This document shows, in pieces, positions 17,717 through 62,738 of a DNA stretch of 64,000 nt. Below the pieces are notes generated by a model, which searched no databases, was not told where the DNA came from, and saw only the letters and a program-made list of their open reading frames with translations. Positions within the stretch are counted from its first letter, which is position 1, and every line of letters starts with the position of its first letter. The stretch comes from Methylocystis sp. MJC1 (GTDB lineage: Bacteria > Pseudomonadota > Alphaproteobacteria > Rhizobiales > Beijerinckiaceae): NCBI RefSeq assembly GCF_026427715.1, contig NZ_CP107558.1, forward strand, positions 1,773,001-1,837,000. Reading direction: 5' to 3'. The translations under genes and the position numbers were made by a program.

Positions 17717-17892
17717 CGTCATGGCCGGGCTTGTCCCGGCCACCCACGCCACGCAAACCGCAGCTAATGCTGGGCAGCCGCCGGGGACTTTGGAGCCTCC
17801 AAAACCCTACATGAACTTTATCCATAGTGATAACGCGTCTTGTTGGGTTGTGTCCCTGGGCGTGGGTGGCTGGGACAAGCCCGGCCATGACG
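17717..17892. repeat. Long inverted repeat, family C
   Basis: CGTCATGGCCGGGCTTGTCC at 17717 onward is mirrored by GGACAAGCCCGGCCATGACG ending at 17892, with further pairing of CCACCCACGCC and GCGTGGGTGG. The loop of about 115 bp is AT-richer and contains no gene. This is a widespread type of dispersed repeat in Hyphomicrobiales. Confidence 0.8.
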
Positions 17893-25131: not shown

Positions 25132-25158
25132 CGTTCGCCGGCTCTCGTAGGAATAAAC

Positions 25159-25240
25159 CGTCATTGCAAGCGAAGCGAAGCAATCCAGGGCCCCGTCGCT
25201 GCTCTGGATTGCATCGTGGCTACGTTCCTCGCAATGACGG
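25159..25240. repeat. Palindromic repeat, family B, copy 1
   Basis: CGTCATTGCAAGCGAAGCGA followed by AGCAATCCAG, a short centre, then CTGGATTGC...CTCGCAATGACGG. The two ends are inverted copies. Other copies are at 26331-26417, 26973-27045 and a half copy near 62595. Confidence 0.85.
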
Positions 25241-26155: not shown

Positions 26156-26330
26156 AACCAACTCCTGACTGCGCAATTCCAGTGCGCAATCGCAATGTTA
26201 GCCAGGCGTCGGAATACATCCGTGCGCCTGCTCACTCGGCGAACGCGAATGAAGGGAATGGTCGGAGAGGCCCCGCGAACGGGTTCATGTCCGCTTGTTT
26301 GCGACGGCTCTCATCGCCTGAGATTTAGCC
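26156..26330. other. Upstream region of the beta-helix gene
   Basis: Holds GCGCAATTCC-AGTGCGC, a short inverted repeat about 20 bp before the beta-helix start that could be regulatory. Otherwise nothing recognised up to the family-B repeat. Confidence 0.35.
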
Positions 26331-26417
26331 CGTCATTGCGAGCGAAGTGAAGCAATCCAGGGCCGTGATATCCGCCTAGGATTGCTTCGTTGGGCTTAGC
26401 CTCCTCGCAATGACGGC
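26331..26417. repeat. Palindromic repeat, family B, copy 2
   Basis: CGTCATTGCGAGCGAAGTGA then AGCAATCCAGGGC, mirrored by GGATTGCTTCGTTGG...CTCGCAATGACGG. It sits about 20 bp beyond the 3' end of the AT-richer orphan gene. Confidence 0.85.
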
Positions 26418-26972: not shown

Positions 26973-27045
26973 GCGACGCGAAGCAATCCAGGGGCCGCGA
27001 TAGCTCCGTGGATTGCTTCTCGGCTTCGCCTCCTCGCAATAACGG
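26973..27045. repeat. Palindromic repeat, family B, copy 3 (one end worn)
   Basis: GCGACGCGAAGCAATCCAGG, a short centre, then GGATTGCTTC...CTCGCAATAACGG. The left terminus expected for the family is replaced by sequence leading into the orphan gene, so that gene's RBS lies at the repeat boundary. Confidence 0.8.
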
Positions 27046-34764: not shown

Positions 34765-37700
34765 TCAGTGGAAGTTGCGGGCCTTGGGCATCGCCTCGCC
34801 TTTCGAGACGCGCATCGCCTCCAAGAGGCGCAGATCGGCCGAGAGGTCGTCGACGCGCTGCGCGACCACATGGATGACGCCCGATTCCTTTTGCAGCCGG
34901 CCGGTGACGGCGACATAGCGGGCGCCGATGATCTCGGCGCGCTGGCGCTCCAGAAGCTTTGGCCAGACGATGATATTGGCCTGGCCGGTTTCGTCTTCGA
35001 TCGTCATGAAGACGACGCCCTTGGCGGTGCCCGGCCGCTGCCGCAGCAGCACCAGGCCCCCGACCATGACCCGCCGCCCGTCGCCGTCGGGAAAGCGCGA
35101 GAGCGCCTCGCAGGGCAGGGCGCCGCGCGCCTCCAGCCGGGAGCGCAGGAAAGCCACGGGATGGCCTTTGAGCGAGAGCGAGAGGAAACGATAGTCCTCG
35201 ACGATCTCCTCCCCCGGCGGCATGGGCGGCAGATGGGCGTCGGGCTCCAGCGGCGAGAAAGAGAGCGCGCGCAGAAGCGGCAGATCGTCCTTGTCGCCGA
35301 CGCGATTGAGCCCCGCCGCCGCCCAGAGCGCGTCGCGGCGCGAGAGGCCGAGAGAGGCAAAGGCATCGGCTTCGGCGAGGCGTTGGATCGTCTCCGGCGA
35401 GAGCGCCGCCCGCAGCCAGACATCGCGGACCGAGTCGTATCCCTTGCCACGTAGCGCGACGAGACGGCGCATGTTTTCCTCAGCGACACCCCTGATCTGG
35501 CGGAACCCGAGGCGGATGGCGCGGTCGCCGATAATGTCGCCCGCCATATCGGCATGGCGAGGGTGGAGAGACTTGGTGGAATGACGGACGCTGGGCGTGA
35601 GTTCATCCCTCCCCTTTACGGGGAGGGTGGCGCAGCGAAGCTGCGACGGGTGGGGTAAGGCCCCATCAGAGTCGTTGCGGCTCGAACCCCACCCGGCGGC
35701 CTGCGGCCGCCGACCTCCCCGTAAAGGGGAGGTATTGGTCGCCATGCTCCCCAGACTGTCGTTGGCGCCTTGGGAGCTATTTGCCTCCAACGTCGCATCC
35801 CAATCCGACGCATTGATATCCACCTCGCGCACCTCGACCCCATGCTCCTTGGCGTCGCGCACGATCTGCGCGGGGGCGTAGAAACCCATGGGCTGTGAAT
35901 TCAGCAAAGCGCAGGCGAAGACGTCCGGGTAACGGCATTTGAGCCAGGCCGAGGCGTAGACGAGCAGCGCGAAGGAGGCCGCATGGCTTTCCGGAAAGCC
36001 GTAAGTGCCGAAGCCCTCGATCTGGCTGAAGCAGCGCTCGGCGAACTCCCGCGCATAGCCCTTCTGCGTCATGCCGGAGATCATCTTGTCGCGGAAGCCG
36101 CCGATAAGGCCGGCGCGTTTGAAGGTCGCCATGGCGCGGCGAAGCTGGTCGGCCTCCGACGGCGTGAAGCCAGCCGCGACAATGGCGATGCGCATGGCCT
36201 GCTCCTGAAACAGCGGCACGCCATGGGTTTTGCTGAGCACCTGCTCGAGTTCCTTGGAAGGATAGGAGACCGCCTCCTTGCCCATGCGGCGGCGCAAATA
36301 GGGATGCACCATGTCGCCCTGAATGGGGCCGGGGCGCACGATCGCAACCTCGATGACGAGATCGTAAAAGCACTTGGGCTGGAGCCGCGGCAGCATGGAC
36401 ATTTGCGCGCGGCTTTCGATCTGGAAGACGCCGACCGTGTCGGCGCGCGAGATCATGGCGTAGACGCGCTCGTCTTCGGCGGGGATCGAGGAGAGGCGAT
36501 GCGCGATCCCGTAATGCTGTGCGAGAAGCGCGAGACCCTTGCGCAGGCAGGTGAGCATGCCGAGCGCCAGCACGTCGATCTTGAGCAGGCCCAGCGCGTC
36601 GAGATCGTCCTTGTCCCATTCGATCGTGCTGCGGCCCTCCATGGCGGCGGGCGCGACGGGGACGACTTCATCGAGCCGGTCGCGCGTGATGACGAAGCCG
36701 CCGGAATGCTGCGTGAGATGACGCGGAAAGCCTTCGATCTCCTCGGCGAGCGCCAGCGCCTTGGCGAAGCGCGGCTCGGATGCGTCGAGGCCGAGCTTTT
36801 GAATATCGTCTCCGCGCTTGCCGCGCTCGCTGCCGCGCCCGAATGCCGCCGACGACAGGCGGCCGACGAGATCGCTCGACAGGCCGAAAGCCTTGCCGAT
36901 TTCGCGTATGGCGCTCTTGCCGCGATAGGTGGTGACGGCGGCGGCAAGCCCCGCGCGCTCGCGGCCGAAGCGGCTGTAGATATATTGGATCACCTCTTCG
37001 CGCCGCTCATGCTCGAAATCGACGTCGATGTCGGGCGGCTCGTTGCGTGCAGCGGAAACGAAACGCTCGAACAGCAGGTCGTGCTTCGTTGGATCGACTT
37101 CCGTGACGCCGAGACAAAAGCAGATCACGGAATTGGCCGCCGAGCCGCGCCCCTGCGCGAGGATTTCCTTGCTCCGCGCAAAGCGCATGATGTCGTGCAC
37201 GGTGAGGAAATAGGCGGCGTATTTCAGCTCGGCCACGAGCGTCAATTCGCGTTCGAGCAGCGCCGAGACATGATCGGGAACGCCTTGCGGATAGCGCGCC
37301 TTTGCGCCCTCGCGCGAGAGCGCTTCGAGCGCTTCCTGCTCGCTCGCAAAACCTTCGCGCAATTCGCTCGGATATTCGTAAGCGAGATCGGTGAGGCGGA
37401 AGTCGAGCCTTTGTAGAAAGCGCGCGCTTTCATCAACGGCGTCTGGCGCGTCATTGAAGAGCCGCGCCATTTCGGCGGCGCTTTTCAAATGCCGCTCGGC
37501 GTTGGCGGCGAGGAGAAAACCAGCTTCATCGAGCGTTGTCTTCTCGCGAATGCAGGTCAGCGCGTCGGCGAGCGGGCGACGCTCCACGACATGCATATGC
37601 GCGTCATTCACCGCGACGAGCGGCAGCCCGAGCCTTTGCGCAAGCTCGATGCGGCCAAGAAGCCGCGCGCGCGGGCGTGGGCCGAACAAAGCGGTCGCCG

Positions 37701-38154
37701 CCAGCCAGACGCGGCCTCGCGTCGCCTCCAACAGGGCAGGGGGCGGCGCGCCATTCTCCATGAGGATGAGCTGCTGGCCCTCGGCAAAGTCGAGAAGATC
37801 GGCGAGGAAAAGCGCACAGTCGCCCTTCTCGGTTCGCAGATTGCCGCGCGTCAACAGCCGGCACAGGCGCCCATAGGCGGCACGGTCCTTGGGATAGCAG
37901 AGAATATCCGGCGTCTCGTCGCGAAAGACGAGCCGCACGCCGACCGCAAGGCGAAAATCCCCGACGCTTTCCTGATGCGCGCGCAGATAGGAGAAGGCGC
38001 GCACCACGCCCGCGAGCGAATTGTGGTCGGCGACGCCAATGCCGCAATGCCCGAGCGCCAGCGCCGTCGCCGCCATCTCTTCCGGATGCGACGCGCCGCG
38101 CAGGAAGGAGAAATTGGTGGTTGTCGCAAGCTCTGCGTAGCGGGGCGGCGGCAT
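34765..38154 (-). CDS. dnaE2: Error-prone DNA polymerase III alpha subunit DnaE2
   Basis: Product of 1129 aa. An N-terminal PHP domain (about 1-210) precedes the C-family polymerase core with PDIDVDFEHERREEVIQY, the catalytic acids. C-terminal HhH and OB domains follow, with LVLLRQRPGTAKGVVFMTIE typical of DnaE2. It does mutagenic translesion synthesis, normally with ImuA and ImuB; neither is adjacent. A segment of about 86 residues (791-876) is extra compared with the family and corresponds to an in-frame palindromic repeat. A LexA-type box precedes the gene. Confidence 0.93.
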   Translation of the reverse strand: MPPPRYAELATTTNFSFLRGASHPEEMAATALALGHCGIGVADHNSLAGVVRAFSYLRAHQESVGDFRLAVGVRLVFRDETPDILCYPKDRAAYGRLCRLLTRGNLRTEKGDCALFLADLLDFAEGQQLILMENGAPPPALLEATRGRVWLAATALFGPRPRARLLGRIELAQRLGLPLVAVNDAHMHVVERRPLADALTCIREKTTLDEAGFLLAANAERHLKSAAEMARLFNDAPDAVDESARFLQRLDFRLTDLAYEYPSELREGFASEQEALEALSREGAKARYPQGVPDHVSALLERELTLVAELKYAAYFLTVHDIMRFARSKEILAQGRGSAANSVICFCLGVTEVDPTKHDLLFERFVSAARNEPPDIDVDFEHERREEVIQYIYSRFGRERAGLAAAVTTYRGKSAIREIGKAFGLSSDLVGRLSSAAFGRGSERGKRGDDIQKLGLDASEPRFAKALALAEEIEGFPRHLTQHSGGFVITRDRLDEVVPVAPAAMEGRSTIEWDKDDLDALGLLKIDVLALGMLTCLRKGLALLAQHYGIAHRLSSIPAEDERVYAMISRADTVGVFQIESRAQMSMLPRLQPKCFYDLVIEVAIVRPGPIQGDMVHPYLRRRMGKEAVSYPSKELEQVLSKTHGVPLFQEQAMRIAIVAAGFTPSEADQLRRAMATFKRAGLIGGFRDKMISGMTQKGYAREFAERCFSQIEGFGTYGFPESHAASFALLVYASAWLKCRYPDVFACALLNSQPMGFYAPAQIVRDAKEHGVEVREVDINASDWDATLEANSSQGANDSLGSMATNTSPLRGGRRPQAAGWGSSRNDSDGALPHPSQLRCATLPVKGRDELTPSVRHSTKSLHPRHADMAGDIIGDRAIRLGFRQIRGVAEENMRRLVALRGKGYDSVRDVWLRAALSPETIQRLAEADAFASLGLSRRDALWAAAGLNRVGDKDDLPLLRALSFSPLEPDAHLPPMPPGEEIVEDYRFLSLSLKGHPVAFLRSRLEARGALPCEALSRFPDGDGRRVMVGGLVLLRQRPGTAKGVVFMTIEDETGQANIIVWPKLLERQRAEIIGARYVAVTGRLQKESGVIHVVAQRVDDLSADLRLLEAMRVSKGEAMPKARNFH
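35527..35784. repeat. In-frame repeat insertion inside dnaE2
   Basis: The core, about 35608-35733, has inverted ends CCTCCCCTTTACGGGGAGG and CCTCCCCGTAAAGGGGAGG with CCACCC/GGGTGG inner arms. The reading frame runs through with no stop, adding SPLRGGRRPQAAGWG... and ...HPSQLRCATLPVKG to the protein. Flanking DnaE2 sequence resumes at DRAIRLGFRQI. The remaining flanks of the extra segment are low-complexity and may be worn repeat. Confidence 0.8.
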
Positions 38155-38175
38155 GGGCGGCGGAGAGGGGTGTTT

Positions 38176-38190
38176 GTTCCCCTATTGTTC
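38176..38190. promoter_or_regulatory. LexA (SOS) box upstream of dnaE2
   Basis: GTTC at 38176-38179, seven bases, then GTTC at 38187-38190. GTTC-N7-GTTC is the established alphaproteobacterial LexA site. It ends 22 bp before the dnaE2 start, the position expected for SOS repression of dnaE2. Confidence 0.8.
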
Positions 38191-38254
38191 TAGGCTTTTT
38201 CTCCCGGCGTCAAGTGGGAGGACAGTGAGCCCTGTAACTTGCTTGTTCGTTGGT

Positions 38255-38575
38255 CTGTAGAGAGAAGGACGAGCTCCTGCGCTCGGTTCCAGGCGTGGTC
38301 CGATCGTCTCGCGCACGCTGATCGCCGAAGTACCGGAGTTCGGAACGCTCGACCGTCGCGAGATCGCCCTCGCTTGCGGGCCTTAAGCCTTGGACGCGAC
38401 AATCCGGCCGGTGGAATGGCAAGAGCTTCATCGACGGCGGGCGTTCCTGCGTCAGAACCGCGCTCTTCATGGCCGCCATGGTAGCAGCGCGGTGGAACAC
38501 AACGCTGAAAGCCTTCCGCGACAGGTTCGTGCAGGGTGCCCCAGAACGCTTGACCGGCAAGCCAGTGATTTCAGG
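38255..38575 (+). pseudogene. Decayed IS110-family transposase (C-terminal part)
   Basis: Three consecutive frames on the plus strand together give a typical IS110 C-terminal (Transposase_20) domain. The first reads REKDELLRSVPGV, the second PIVSRTLIAEVPEFGTLDRR then EIALA, and the third GLKPWTRQSGRWNGKSFIDG followed by RTALFMAAMVAARWNTTLKA. Joining them needs single-base frameshifts near 38296 and 38374. The N-terminal catalytic DEDD domain is absent. The remnant ends close to the terminator of the outer-membrane protein gene. Non-functional. Confidence 0.8.
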
Positions 38576-38590
38576 CGCGCATCACCCCAA

Positions 38591-38626
38591 GAAAAACGGC
38601 GCGGGGAGCGCCCGCGCCGTTTGAAG
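38591..38626 (-). terminator. Terminator of the outer-membrane barrel gene
   Basis: AACGGCGCGGG-GAGCG-CCCGCGCCGTT forms a strong hairpin. On the minus strand it is followed by TTTTCTT, about 6 bp beyond the barrel gene's stop, so it should terminate that gene. Confidence 0.8.
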
Positions 38627-38631
38627 AAAGA

Positions 38632-39504
38632 TCAGTATTTCCGCACCAATGGGGGCATCGGAGGCGGAGCCATCATCGGCACCGGCGTGAGCGACGGAAT
38701 GATGTAGCGGAAGCCGATCCGCACGTCGTTGGAGGCGACGTTGAAGGAGTGGCGCTCGCCGAAGCAGGGCACGGAGTTGCAGGAGATCGGATTGCTCGTG
38801 ATCTTGCCCATGTCGAGGTAGCGATAAGCCACTTCCAGCCGCAGGTTCGGCGTTACCGCGAAGCCGAGGCCGCCTGTCACATGCCAGGCGAAATTCGTCG
38901 CGTTCATGTCGGCGGCGACGCCATAGCCGCCATTGGCGATGCCGTAGCCGGTATCTGTGAGGCCCGAGAAATTGTGGAAGGCCGCGCCGACGCCGGCGCC
39001 AATGAAGGGCGTCAGTCCATACCAGGTGCCGAGATCGACATAGGCGTTCGCCAGGAAAAGGGCGGTGCCCAGATTGGCGTTGTAATTGTCGAAGCCGCTA
39101 CACGCCGAGCCGCAGCCCGGAAAGCTGAAGTGATTCGTGGCGCGATAGGCGGACTGGATGCGGTATTCGCCGGTCAGATCGAAGCGAACCCAGCTATTGA
39201 ACTGGTAGCCGACGCCAGCGCCCGCGAACGCCGTGTCGCCGATGCTTCGCTGGGTGTTCCAGACCGGACCGGCGGGAACCACCACGTTTCCGAAGCTGTC
39301 GATGCCCGGGCGTAGCGAATAGTTCCAGCTGGAAATCTGGGTTGCGCCGACGCCCACGTCGCCGCGCAGATACCAGCCTCCGAAATCGACGGGCGGCGGC
39401 GGTTCCATCGGCGGGGGCGGCGGCAGCAGATCGGCCGCATTTGCGCCAGCGTTCGCGCCGGCGAGAAGTGCGGCCGCAAAAAGGAGGGCGAATATACGGC
39501 CCAT
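38632..39504 (-). CDS. Outer membrane beta-barrel protein (Omp25/RopB-like)
   Basis: Product of 290 aa; ATG at 39504 (MGRIFALLFAAALLAGANAG), cleavage near NA-ADLLPPPPP. The Pro-rich start (ADLLPPPPPMEPPPP) and eight or so amphipathic strands (GWYLRGDVGVGATQ, FDLTGEYRI, LRLEVAYRYLDMG, VRIGFRYI) match the alphaproteobacterial Omp25/porin-like family. Ends with a short Pro/Met-rich tail and an aromatic C-terminus (VRKY). Likely an abundant structural outer-membrane protein. Confidence 0.87.
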   Translation of the reverse strand: MGRIFALLFAAALLAGANAGANAADLLPPPPPMEPPPPVDFGGWYLRGDVGVGATQISSWNYSLRPGIDSFGNVVVPAGPVWNTQRSIGDTAFAGAGVGYQFNSWVRFDLTGEYRIQSAYRATNHFSFPGCGSACSGFDNYNANLGTALFLANAYVDLGTWYGLTPFIGAGVGAAFHNFSGLTDTGYGIANGGYGVAADMNATNFAWHVTGGLGFAVTPNLRLEVAYRYLDMGKITSNPISCNSVPCFGERHSFNVASNDVRIGFRYIIPSLTPVPMMAPPPMPPLVRKY

Positions 39505-39708
39505 GATTACTTCCCCTTTACGTAAAGAGGGCCGCGAAGCGGACCCGTGGCGCGTAGCCATCGGGCGTAAACATGACCGAAACCGCTTAAAGCCGAGTTA
39601 ACCTTACCACTTAACCCAAAATACCGGCAGTTTAGCTAATTCTGTAAAGCATAACGGCTTTTGAAAGGCGGAGCGGGGCGTCTCCAACGCCCACGCCCGC
39701 TTTTTTTC

Positions 39709-41055
39709 TCATGCCGCTTCCGCCGGCTCTTTCAGCGCGTCGCAAACCTGCGCGACGAGCGTCTCGACGAGATCGCGGTCGTCGCCCTCGGCCATGACGC
39801 GGATTACCGGTTCAGTGCCGGAGGGGCGCACGATGAGGCGTCCCGCATTGCCAAGCCGCGCGCGCGCCGAGTCGATCGCCACGACGACCGACTTCTTCTC
39901 CAGCATCCTCTTTTGCGCACGGACGTTCTTGAGCACCTGCGGCAAGGGCTGGAAACAATGGCAGACCTCGCTTACGCGCCTGTTCTTGCGCTTGACCTCG
40001 GCGAGCACTTGCATGGCGGTCACGAGTCCGTCGCCGGTCGTCGAATAGTCGGAGAGGATCACATGGCCCGACTGCTCGCCGCCGACATTGTAACCCTCCT
40101 TGCGCATGCGCTCGATGACGTAGCGGTCGCCGACGGCGGTGCGCTCCAGCGTGAGGCCCATGGCGCCCAGATGGCGCTCGAGGCCCAGATTGGACATGAT
40201 CGTCGCGACGATGCCGGGCTTTGCGAGGAGCCCCTGATCGCGCCAGCTTTGCGCGACGACGGCCATCACCTGGTCGCCGTCGATCACCGCGCCGGTCTCG
40301 TCGACGAGGATCACACGGTCCGCGTCGCCATCGAGCGCGATCCCGACATCGGCGCGCAGTTCGCGCACCTTCTCGCGCAGCGCCTGCGGCGAGGTCGAGC
40401 CGACGTCGCGGTTGATGTTGAAGCCGTCCGGCTCCACGCCGATCGCGATCACCTCGGCGCCGAGCTCCCAAAGCGCTTCGGGGGCGACCTTGTAGGCGGC
40501 GCCATTCGCGCAATCGATCACCACGCGCAGGCCTTCGAGGCTCAGATTGCGCGGCAGCGTATGTTTGGCGAATTCGATGTAGCGCGCGCGCACGTCGTCG
40601 ATGCGGCGGGCGCGGCCGAGCTGGGTGGAGGCCGCGAGCTTGCGGCTGAGATCGCTGTCGAGGAGCGTTTCGATTTCGCTTTCGATCTCGTCGGAGAGCT
40701 TGTGCCCATCCGGCCCGAAGAGCTTGATGCCGTTGTCCTCAAAGGAATTGTGAGAGGCGGAGATCATCACGCCGACATCGGCGCGCATGGAGCGGGTGAG
40801 CATGGCGACGGCGGGCGTCGGCATCGGGCCGAGCAGCAGCGTGTCCATGCCGACCGAGGCGAAGCCGGCGACCAGCGCATATTCGATCATATAGCCGGAG
40901 AGGCGGGTGTCCTTGCCGATGACCACGCGATGGCGGCCCTCGCCGCGCTGAAAAATGAGGCCGGCGGCTTGTCCGACCTTGAGCGCCAGCTCGGGCGTTA
41001 TCTTGACATTGGCGAGGCCGCGTATGCCATCCGTTCCAAAATAATGACGCGCCAT
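39709..41055 (-). CDS. glmM: Phosphoglucosamine mutase
   Basis: Product of 448 aa. Catalytic phosphoserine loop [14 protein letters not shown], metal loop DGDADR, and the GEQSGH and [12 protein letters not shown] motifs are all present. Start choice: two ATGs at 41061 and 41055; AAGGA sits directly against the first but six bases before the second, so 41055 ([13 protein letters not shown]) is preferred. GlmM converts glucosamine-6-P to glucosamine-1-P for peptidoglycan and LPS precursors. Normally follows ftsH directly; here arsC and a PilZ gene on the other strand intervene. Confidence 0.95.
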
Positions 41056-41131
41056 CTGCATTCCTTTTCGTGGGATAAGGGCACAAGGTCACGCAAAGTT
41101 GGGCTTCGATGTGGCCAAAACATTCTGCCCG

Positions 41132-41150
41132 ATACCGTATTCAACGGTAT
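41132..41150. promoter_or_regulatory. Perfect palindrome between glmM and arsC
   Basis: ATACCGTATTCAACGGTAT has 7-bp perfect arms around 5 bp and lies 62 bp before the arsC start and 77 bp before glmM. It looks like a dimeric repressor site. The regulator is not identifiable from the window. Confidence 0.55.
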
Positions 41151-41211
41151 TCCACAATTTGGACCATAGGTTAAAATTTAGGTCGCTCTTGACTTCGAGA
41201 AGGATGTTGGA

Positions 41212-49957: not shown

Positions 49958-50061
49958 GTCATTCCCGACGCTCGCAAAGCGAGCGACCGGCAATCCAGAG
50001 CAACACCAGCGCTTTTGCGGCTCTGGATTCCCGGTCGGGCTTTCAGCCCGCCGGGAATGAC
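49958..50061. repeat. Palindromic repeat, family A, full copy
   Basis: GTCATTCCCGACGCTCGC...GGCAATCCAGAGC is mirrored by GCTCTGGATTCCCGGTC...CGCCGGGAATGAC. The two halves pair over most of their length around a short centre. It fills the gap upstream of the small ydcH-type gene. Confidence 0.85.
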
Positions 50062-55300: not shown

Positions 55301-55388
55301 GGGGTTTCCGACCGGCAATCCAGAGACCCAAGAGCATTGGTTTCGCTCTGGCTTCCGGATCGCTCGCTTGGCGAAGGTCAGCAATGAC
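55301..55388. repeat. Degenerate family-A repeat
   Basis: GGTTTCCGACCGGCAATCCAGAG...GCTCTGGCTTCCGGATCGCTCGC...GCAATGAC resembles the full copy at 49958-50061 with substitutions and gaps. Confidence 0.6.
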
Positions 55389-62557: not shown

Positions 62558-62594
62558 CTTTTCCGAGCGCGGCGAGCGGAACGTTCAACCGGAT

Positions 62595-62624
62595 CGTCAT
62601 TGCGAGCGAAGCGAAGCAATCCGC
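62595..62624. repeat. Half copy of family-B repeat
   Basis: CGTCATTGCGAGCGAAGCGA then AGCAATCCGC matches one arm of the repeats at 25159, 26331 and 26973; no mirrored arm follows. Confidence 0.75.
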
Positions 62625-62738
62625 GGGCCTATGGGTCTAAGCTCGCCCGCCTGATTCCACGCCAGCAGAAAGCGGGCTAAGCTCGCACGAACGCGCGCCG
62701 GAGTTCTTCTCCAGATTAGCGATGTGCGAGGCAACATC

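Follow-up and report, generated by a model that had tools for sequence, protein, structure and literature searches.

The window, i.e., the whole 64,000-nucleotide stretch of Methylocystis sp. MJC1 DNA that was analyzed, carries a gene for the error-prone DNA polymerase DnaE2 (Table 1). The protein scored 1352 bits against the NCBIfam model NF004225, for which the cut-off is 939 bits, the polymerase columns are conserved across 68 DnaE2 sequences, and the fold corresponds to that of Pol III alpha structures. Close to the start codon lies the motif GTTC-N7-GTTC, which we take to be the alphaproteobacterial SOS box. It is the sole exact match in the window, yet because 1.7 matches are expected by chance, SOS control of dnaE2 through this predicted box is only suggested. 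As judged by eye from the translations, no imuA/imuB-like frame was seen directly upstream of dnaE2 (window positions 38154-41169), and the neighbors in this interval are an outer-membrane beta-barrel-like protein and a GlmM-like protein.

Table 1. Features of the dnaE2 locus, in window coordinates
Feature	Position	Strand	Basis or remark
dnaE2, error-prone DNA polymerase, 1129 aa	34765..38154	-	NCBIfam NF004225, Pfam domains, intact frame
Lineage-specific in-frame insert, aa 791-862	35569..35784	-	Alignment of relatives; pLDDT <50 at aa 798-857
Probable full element with weakly conserved flanks common to dispersed copies, ends inferred	35584..35766	-	60% flank consensus, 18 copies
Repeat core, inverted arms and branched hairpin fold	35605..35735	-	Copies, alignment, fold
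Palindromic arm CCTCCCCTTTACGGGGAGG	35608..35626	.	Motif search
Inner hairpin CGCAGC-TTC-GCTGCG (coding sense)	35631..35645	.	Sequence, fold
Inner hairpin GGCGGCC-GCA-GGCCGCC (coding sense)	35695..35711	.	Sequence, fold
Palindromic arm CCTCCCCGTAAAGGGGAGG	35714..35732	.	Motif search
GTTC-N7-GTTC, LexA/SOS-box-like	38176..38190	+	21 nt from the dnaE2 start codon

A reading of the window made beforehand from the letters alone (the sequence-only reading) had proposed that a palindromic repeat with mirrored ends was absorbed in frame into dnaE2. Both points held: the dnaE2 frame is unbroken through the element, and a search for CCTCCCCNNNANGGGGAGG with at most one mismatch returned four matches in the window, namely the two 19-nt arms on both strands, where shuffling expects 0.02. 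These arms are nested in 28-nt inverted arms (35605-35632 and 35708-35735) that are 89% complementary. The same reading described residues 791-876 as unlike DnaE2. Residues 791-862 are indeed lineage-specific, beginning directly after the nearly invariant E790, but residues 863-876 (LHPRHADMAGDIIG) are conserved in relatives without the element, so that the proposed span overshoots at one end. In E. coli alpha, about 10 residues occupy the position of the loop (query residues 782 and 877 correspond to 818 and 828, the second match being weak at 15 bits). In an AlphaFold2 model built with 68 sequences (mean pLDDT 83.3), the low-scoring residues of the insert lie between strands 788-791 and 878-881. 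The insert is thus predicted to be a disordered loop within an otherwise confident polymerase model, where it links the finger and helix-hairpin-helix parts, in agreement with the earlier suggestion that a flexible loop might be tolerated there.

The element occurs at the identical position of DnaE2 in three related species, G036, G035, and G010. In G009, DnaE2 is 89% identical over the first 794 residues to the protein in the window's genome (G000), and 21 other residues replace the insert; the loops of G006, G033, and G039 are likewise short at this position. Because of these short loops, the element is an insertion. A clean gap of about 86 residues had been anticipated in the alignment; a gap is present in relatives, but measures 72 residues and in G009 is occupied by the 21 unrelated ones. 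DnaE1 groups G000, G035, G036, and G010 as one clade, therefore one ancestral insertion is enough, and it would date to the ancestor of these four species.

In pairwise comparisons of G000 with G036, G035, and G010, dN/dS of dnaE2 was 0.07-0.13 on the 5′ side of the insert (216 codons only for G010) and 0.07-0.09 on the 3′ side, so that the gene is under purifying selection on both sides and is not decaying. Within the insert, dN/dS is relaxed, at 0.58-0.84, values resting on 14 to 28 changes. These values bear on a further reading, in which dnaE2 is disrupted by the element or the element stems from an error in the assembly, and which is exceedingly improbable. Such events do occur in the genus, since dnaE2 of G041 (contig C322) is split over two overlapping frames (query residues 1-603 and 634-1073), likely by a frameshift or assembly error. 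However, the same insert is present in four separate assemblies, which, together with the strong purifying selection on the part 3′ of the insert, led us to reject a pseudogene or an assembly error. We infer that DnaE2 is made at full length with its loop, and that the loop is neutral.

The element is also dispersed, as the sequence-only reading had expected of an insertion. A 141-nt query returned 59 match rows in the 4.54 Mb genome of G000, with many places matched on both strands because the element is palindromic. The rows correspond to about 30 distinct places, two of them less than 200 nt apart, a possible undercount given that scoring covered 40 of the 67 first-look candidates. Among the other full-length copies, the best match has 90% identity. 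Core length ranged from 120 to 126 nt among 16 measured copies, both genic ones included. Judged by the terminal inverted repeats that define a MITE, the arms of the core are clear and the outer ends are weakly conserved; in 18 two-armed copies the flanks beyond the arms are also weakly conserved. The element would be described as a non-autonomous palindromic element, REP/MITE-like, with a core of about 130 nt and roughly 180 nt in all with flanks. Two copies (G000:C1:2495839 and 2496792) lie within 1 kb of each other and flank a 219-aa frame. The 183-nt element had no match in 72,556 plasmid records, from which near relatives are possibly left out. Mobilization by a RAYT was rejected as an explanation: at E 0.001, PF01797 (Y1_Tnp, RAYT) had no match in G000, with 5 of 14 control genomes positive.

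To place the copies relative to genes, 26 of the 30 places were laid out for frame analysis, the other four having no locus. A spanning frame with high third-position GC and a length of 120 aa or more is present at seven of the 26, dnaE2 among them, and absent from the other 19. Pfam searches of the six other frames found domains on both sides of the element in ligD, domains only after it in a tRNA synthetase frame (L026), and none in the remaining four. Homology-supported genes therefore hold 2 of the 26 laid-out places (dnaE2 and ligD), and this gene count is a lower bound, as the Pfam searches covered the spanning frames with high third-position GC. In ligD (875 aa), the phosphoesterase and ligase domains flank the copy, which is oriented as in dnaE2 and read in the same codon phase, both copies being at codon offset 2. 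The ligD insert is common to G035, G036, and G010, and is lacking from G032, G031, G008, G042, G043, and G040 (by alignment for G032, G008, and G042). Of 16 copies, 10 have no stop codon in the frame used in both genes, compared with 6 to 8 for each of the five other frames.

In-frame palindromic elements are known from Rickettsia, a comparison that the sequence-only reading had drawn and that proved fitting. As far as the accessible text of a review describes them (PMC10969869), RPEs are palindromes of about 150 bp that are inserted in frame into genes unrelated to one another and encode a common peptide. Here, the repeat is palindromic, falls in the size range of about 100-150 bp, is dispersed over about 30 places, and is read in frame in the conserved genes for DnaE2 and LigD, relatives of which are without the insert, and orientation and frame are the same in the unrelated genes, two genes only. 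The encoded peptide (NTSPLRGGRRPQAAGWG...ATLPVKGRD in DnaE2) has a close match in LigD, as in the RPEs of that text. The genic share differs, being 2 of 26 laid-out places here compared with nearly half of the RPEs in R. conorii, as given in the same text. Set against the RPE description, the element thus appears to work like a Rickettsia-type protein-coding palindromic element, an apt likeness in behavior.

Bacterial REPs are a second point of comparison. The accessible text of Di Nocera, De Gregorio, and Rocco (2013; PMC3733652) describes intragenic REPs of the GTAG and CGTC families, mostly intergenic otherwise, that are read in frame within DNA-repair genes, including DnaE2 and a DNA ligase. 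The present element resembles the REPs described there in being palindromic, mostly intergenic, and in some cases in frame in DNA-repair genes, and a repeat within this polymerase is not a first case. Relative to those GTAG and CGTC REPs, the element is larger and lacks such a GTAG or CGTC tag next to its stem; the aligned copies, viewed by eye, mostly have ATA before the stem and GAT after it, and a CGTC present in the 5′ flank consensus is more than 10 nt from the stem. For lack of this tag, we do not class the element as a GTAG/CGTC REP. The Bradyrhizobium elements Br-REP1 and Br-REP2, which the part of the source available (PMC5082802) places between genes and in 3′ UTRs, are alike in being lineage-specific alphaproteobacterial palindromic repeats with many copies.

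We considered whether the hairpin itself might act in the dnaE2 mRNA by slowing ribosomes or stabilizing the upstream mRNA, and thereby set the level of DnaE2. The fold of 35584-35766 is far stronger than that of shuffled sequences (-109.3 kcal/mol, z -6.6, against a shuffle mean of -77.4 kcal/mol), but palindromes would fold wherever they are placed. Covariation over 14 aligned copies gave +0.52 kcal/mol, i.e., no support, with changes on both sides in 4 of 38 pairs. The fold is also weaker in G010, both in DnaE2 (from -94.9 to -81.6 kcal/mol) and in LigD (from -102.3 to -73.0 kcal/mol). Selection on the hairpin is thus not supported by these data, and an RNA-level device is very improbable. 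No Rfam family matched in the window at the gathering threshold, so that a known RNA family was discarded for the element. At the level of the DNA, the 128-nt element has no indel in the four species, in dnaE2 and in ligD, and this constant length is as a reading-frame constraint predicts. Four-fold sites of the element differ less than those of the flanks in 6 of 6 comparisons (one with p 0.038, the others not below 0.05), therefore some constraint is possible.

The same loop of DnaE2 carries other repeats in other species. In G008 it contains half-units of the element arranged inside out, in G032, G042, and G043 another arrangement together with a second repeat, and in G031 and G040 an unrelated pair that is CGTC-REP-like by eye (CGTC, stem start AT, CCA tail). 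To extend the comparison, 80 wider DnaE2 loci were taken as the best 80 of at least 589 matches, hence not a random sample; they are mostly from Alphaproteobacteria with a few from Bacteroidota, and together with the genus set gave an alignment of 118 DnaE2. The loop was assessed in 113 of these, after dropping L092, L110, L104, and L115 (partial or misaligned) and L041 (a duplicate of G001). Loops of at least 58 aa were found in 26 of the 113, none of them in Bacteroidota. Taking as strongly palindromic a z above 3 relative to windows of the same gene, 18 of the 26 long loops qualified, compared with 2 of the 87 shorter ones. The long loops that fail are those of G009, G010, G032, G033, G042, L064, L068, and L077; the test misses some, because G010 plainly carries the element. 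G001 is borderline, with z 3.2 in the loop test and 2.6 in the segment scan described below.

The inserts are diverse as well as recurrent. By BLAST, 23 inserts fall into 10 unlinked groups, the largest of which is joined partly via conserved flanks and includes at least three repeat types. Four other inserts, each searched against its own genome, gave 22 (G031), 81 (L081), 56 (L073), and 68 (L096) match rows, counting both strands and the insert itself, and in L081 two repeat families adjoin within the loop. Various palindromic repeats thus occupy this one loop in other DnaE2s, mainly from Alphaproteobacteria, and we estimate about a dozen independent insertions, counted by genus and repeat type and not as events on a tree. 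Along the whole protein, we scanned 27 segments in 111 DnaE2 (the 118 minus the five loop-test drops, G010, which has half the gene, and L100) and found 28 insertions that add at least 25 aa and are strongly palindromic, counts that include related, non-independent species. Residues 778-887 account for 17 of them among 25 large insertions, the clade of the window included, and residues 887-920 for seven of nine large insertions, five of the nine being from Bradyrhizobium and L039/L074 being near duplicates. The others are at 130-160 (2 of 8), 95-130 (1 of 1), and 545-580 (1 of 2), and the remaining 22 segments have no strongly palindromic insertion of this size. Large non-palindromic insertions include 18 at 60-95 and 2 at 955-990. 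In Bradyrhizobium L078, L079, L083, and L084, strongly palindromic insertions are seen in a second DnaE2 loop, at 887-920. DnaE2 of G006 (L158) has a different palindromic insert, 54 aa long and in frame, at another loop near residue 113; the peptide PSPAIAGEG is repeated within it.

Comparable insertions are nearly absent from DnaE1, the replicative relative, across 89 genomes, of which 12 gave partial matches. In 39 genus genomes (40 rows, five partial or in pieces), the matched span is no more than 7 aa longer than the query. In 50 wider genomes, drawn from the best 80 of at least 589 DnaE2 matches, one DnaE1 has an extension of +25 aa or more (L129, +35 aa) and seven are partial, compared with DnaE2 loops of at least 58 aa in 13 of the same 50. 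The single DnaE1 is from a Novosphingobium genome (G096, contig C101) in which DnaE2 has repeat inserts too.

A distribution of this kind could reflect where elements land and not what survives, if the loop were a mutational hotspot. The presence of several repeat families in one loop, the two that adjoin in L081, and the inverse arrangement of half-units in G008 are compatible with such targeting. The insert-free loops, though, vary between species with no obvious shared target by eye, other loops of DnaE2 are hit as well, and a RAYT-type transposase was not found in G000; targeted insertion is therefore improbable. The extension might, alternatively, have been selected, with the loop altering partner contacts, stability, or fidelity of DnaE2 and thereby induced mutagenesis. 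One linker just ahead of the helix-hairpin-helix region is extended repeatedly, each of the two genic copies found in G000 lies in the gene of a repair enzyme, and Di Nocera et al. (2013), in the accessible text, note REPs in repair genes and suggest mutator effects. Adaptive tuning of this sort is nevertheless unlikely, given that the 23 inserts are of 10 unlinked groups with loops ranging from 65 to 126 aa, that many DnaE2 have loops of only 23-31 aa, and that the window's own insert is predicted to be disordered and has a relaxed dN/dS. We likewise doubt the broader proposal that one DnaE2 loop is a recurrent landing site of palindromic repeats across Alphaproteobacteria whose insertions change the polymerase, so that selfish repeats would adjust the induced mutation rate of the host.

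The genomic copies, the presence and absence among relatives, and the disordered loop model support the view that a dispersed palindromic element was inserted in frame into DnaE2. We consider it fairly likely that such insertions are tolerated in a disposable linker of DnaE2 and recur across lineages by the same filter. The element would have entered the loop between the finger and helix-hairpin-helix parts in frame, would be translated as a disordered loop, and would be kept because the loop accepts almost any stop-free sequence; many copies, often with stop-free frames, and a disposable linker in a conditionally used polymerase would then lead different repeats to the same place. Tolerance alone leaves unexplained why DNA-repair enzymes account for both of the homology-supported genic copies in G000. 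The accessible text of Di Nocera et al. (2013) finds the targeting of repair genes hard to regard as fortuitous and discusses both neutral linkers and mutator effects. REP sites in that text differ among genes of the same category, except recB of two Xanthomonas, whereas here a single DnaE2 loop is hit repeatedly. REPs inside DnaE2 have been known since 2013; for this recurrence, no report was found in the literature searched, which was mostly without subscription papers and in which PMC3733652 was compared by its accessible text.

Unrelated repeats in one loop of one translesion polymerase, with close relatives without the insert, amount to natural replicates. They make directly testable a question that dates from 2013, namely whether repeats inserted into repair genes alter mutagenesis or have no effect on it. 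They also show how a dispersed repeat can become protein sequence in bacteria other than Rickettsia, and call for caution in that repeat-derived segments are present in some DnaE2 and LigD sequences.

Elsewhere in the window, intergenic elements of the same general style had been noted, which holds loosely; the arm motif is found nowhere else in the window. The palindrome at 17717-17892 is intergenic, but belongs to a different family, i.e., an inverted pair (CGTCATGGCCGGGCTTGTCCCGGCCA...) of the CGTC type, the same kind as in DnaE2 of G031 and G040. This repeat gave at least 97 match rows in G000, and among the matches listed, 35 stretches examined contain 38 places, with at least 13 spanning frames. 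In Pfam searches of 10 of the 13, no frame had domains on both sides of the element, two had clear domains only after it, and one had a sub-cut-off match; for this repeat, too, the gene count is a lower bound. Copies of another, CCGTCATTGCGAGCGAAGCGAAGCAATCCAGGGCC-like repeat lie at 25158-25193, 26330-26365, 26973-26996, and 62594-62629, and a 54-nt repeat (CGACCGGCAATCCAGAG...) is present at 49984-50037 and 55309-55362 as two copies that are 72% identical.
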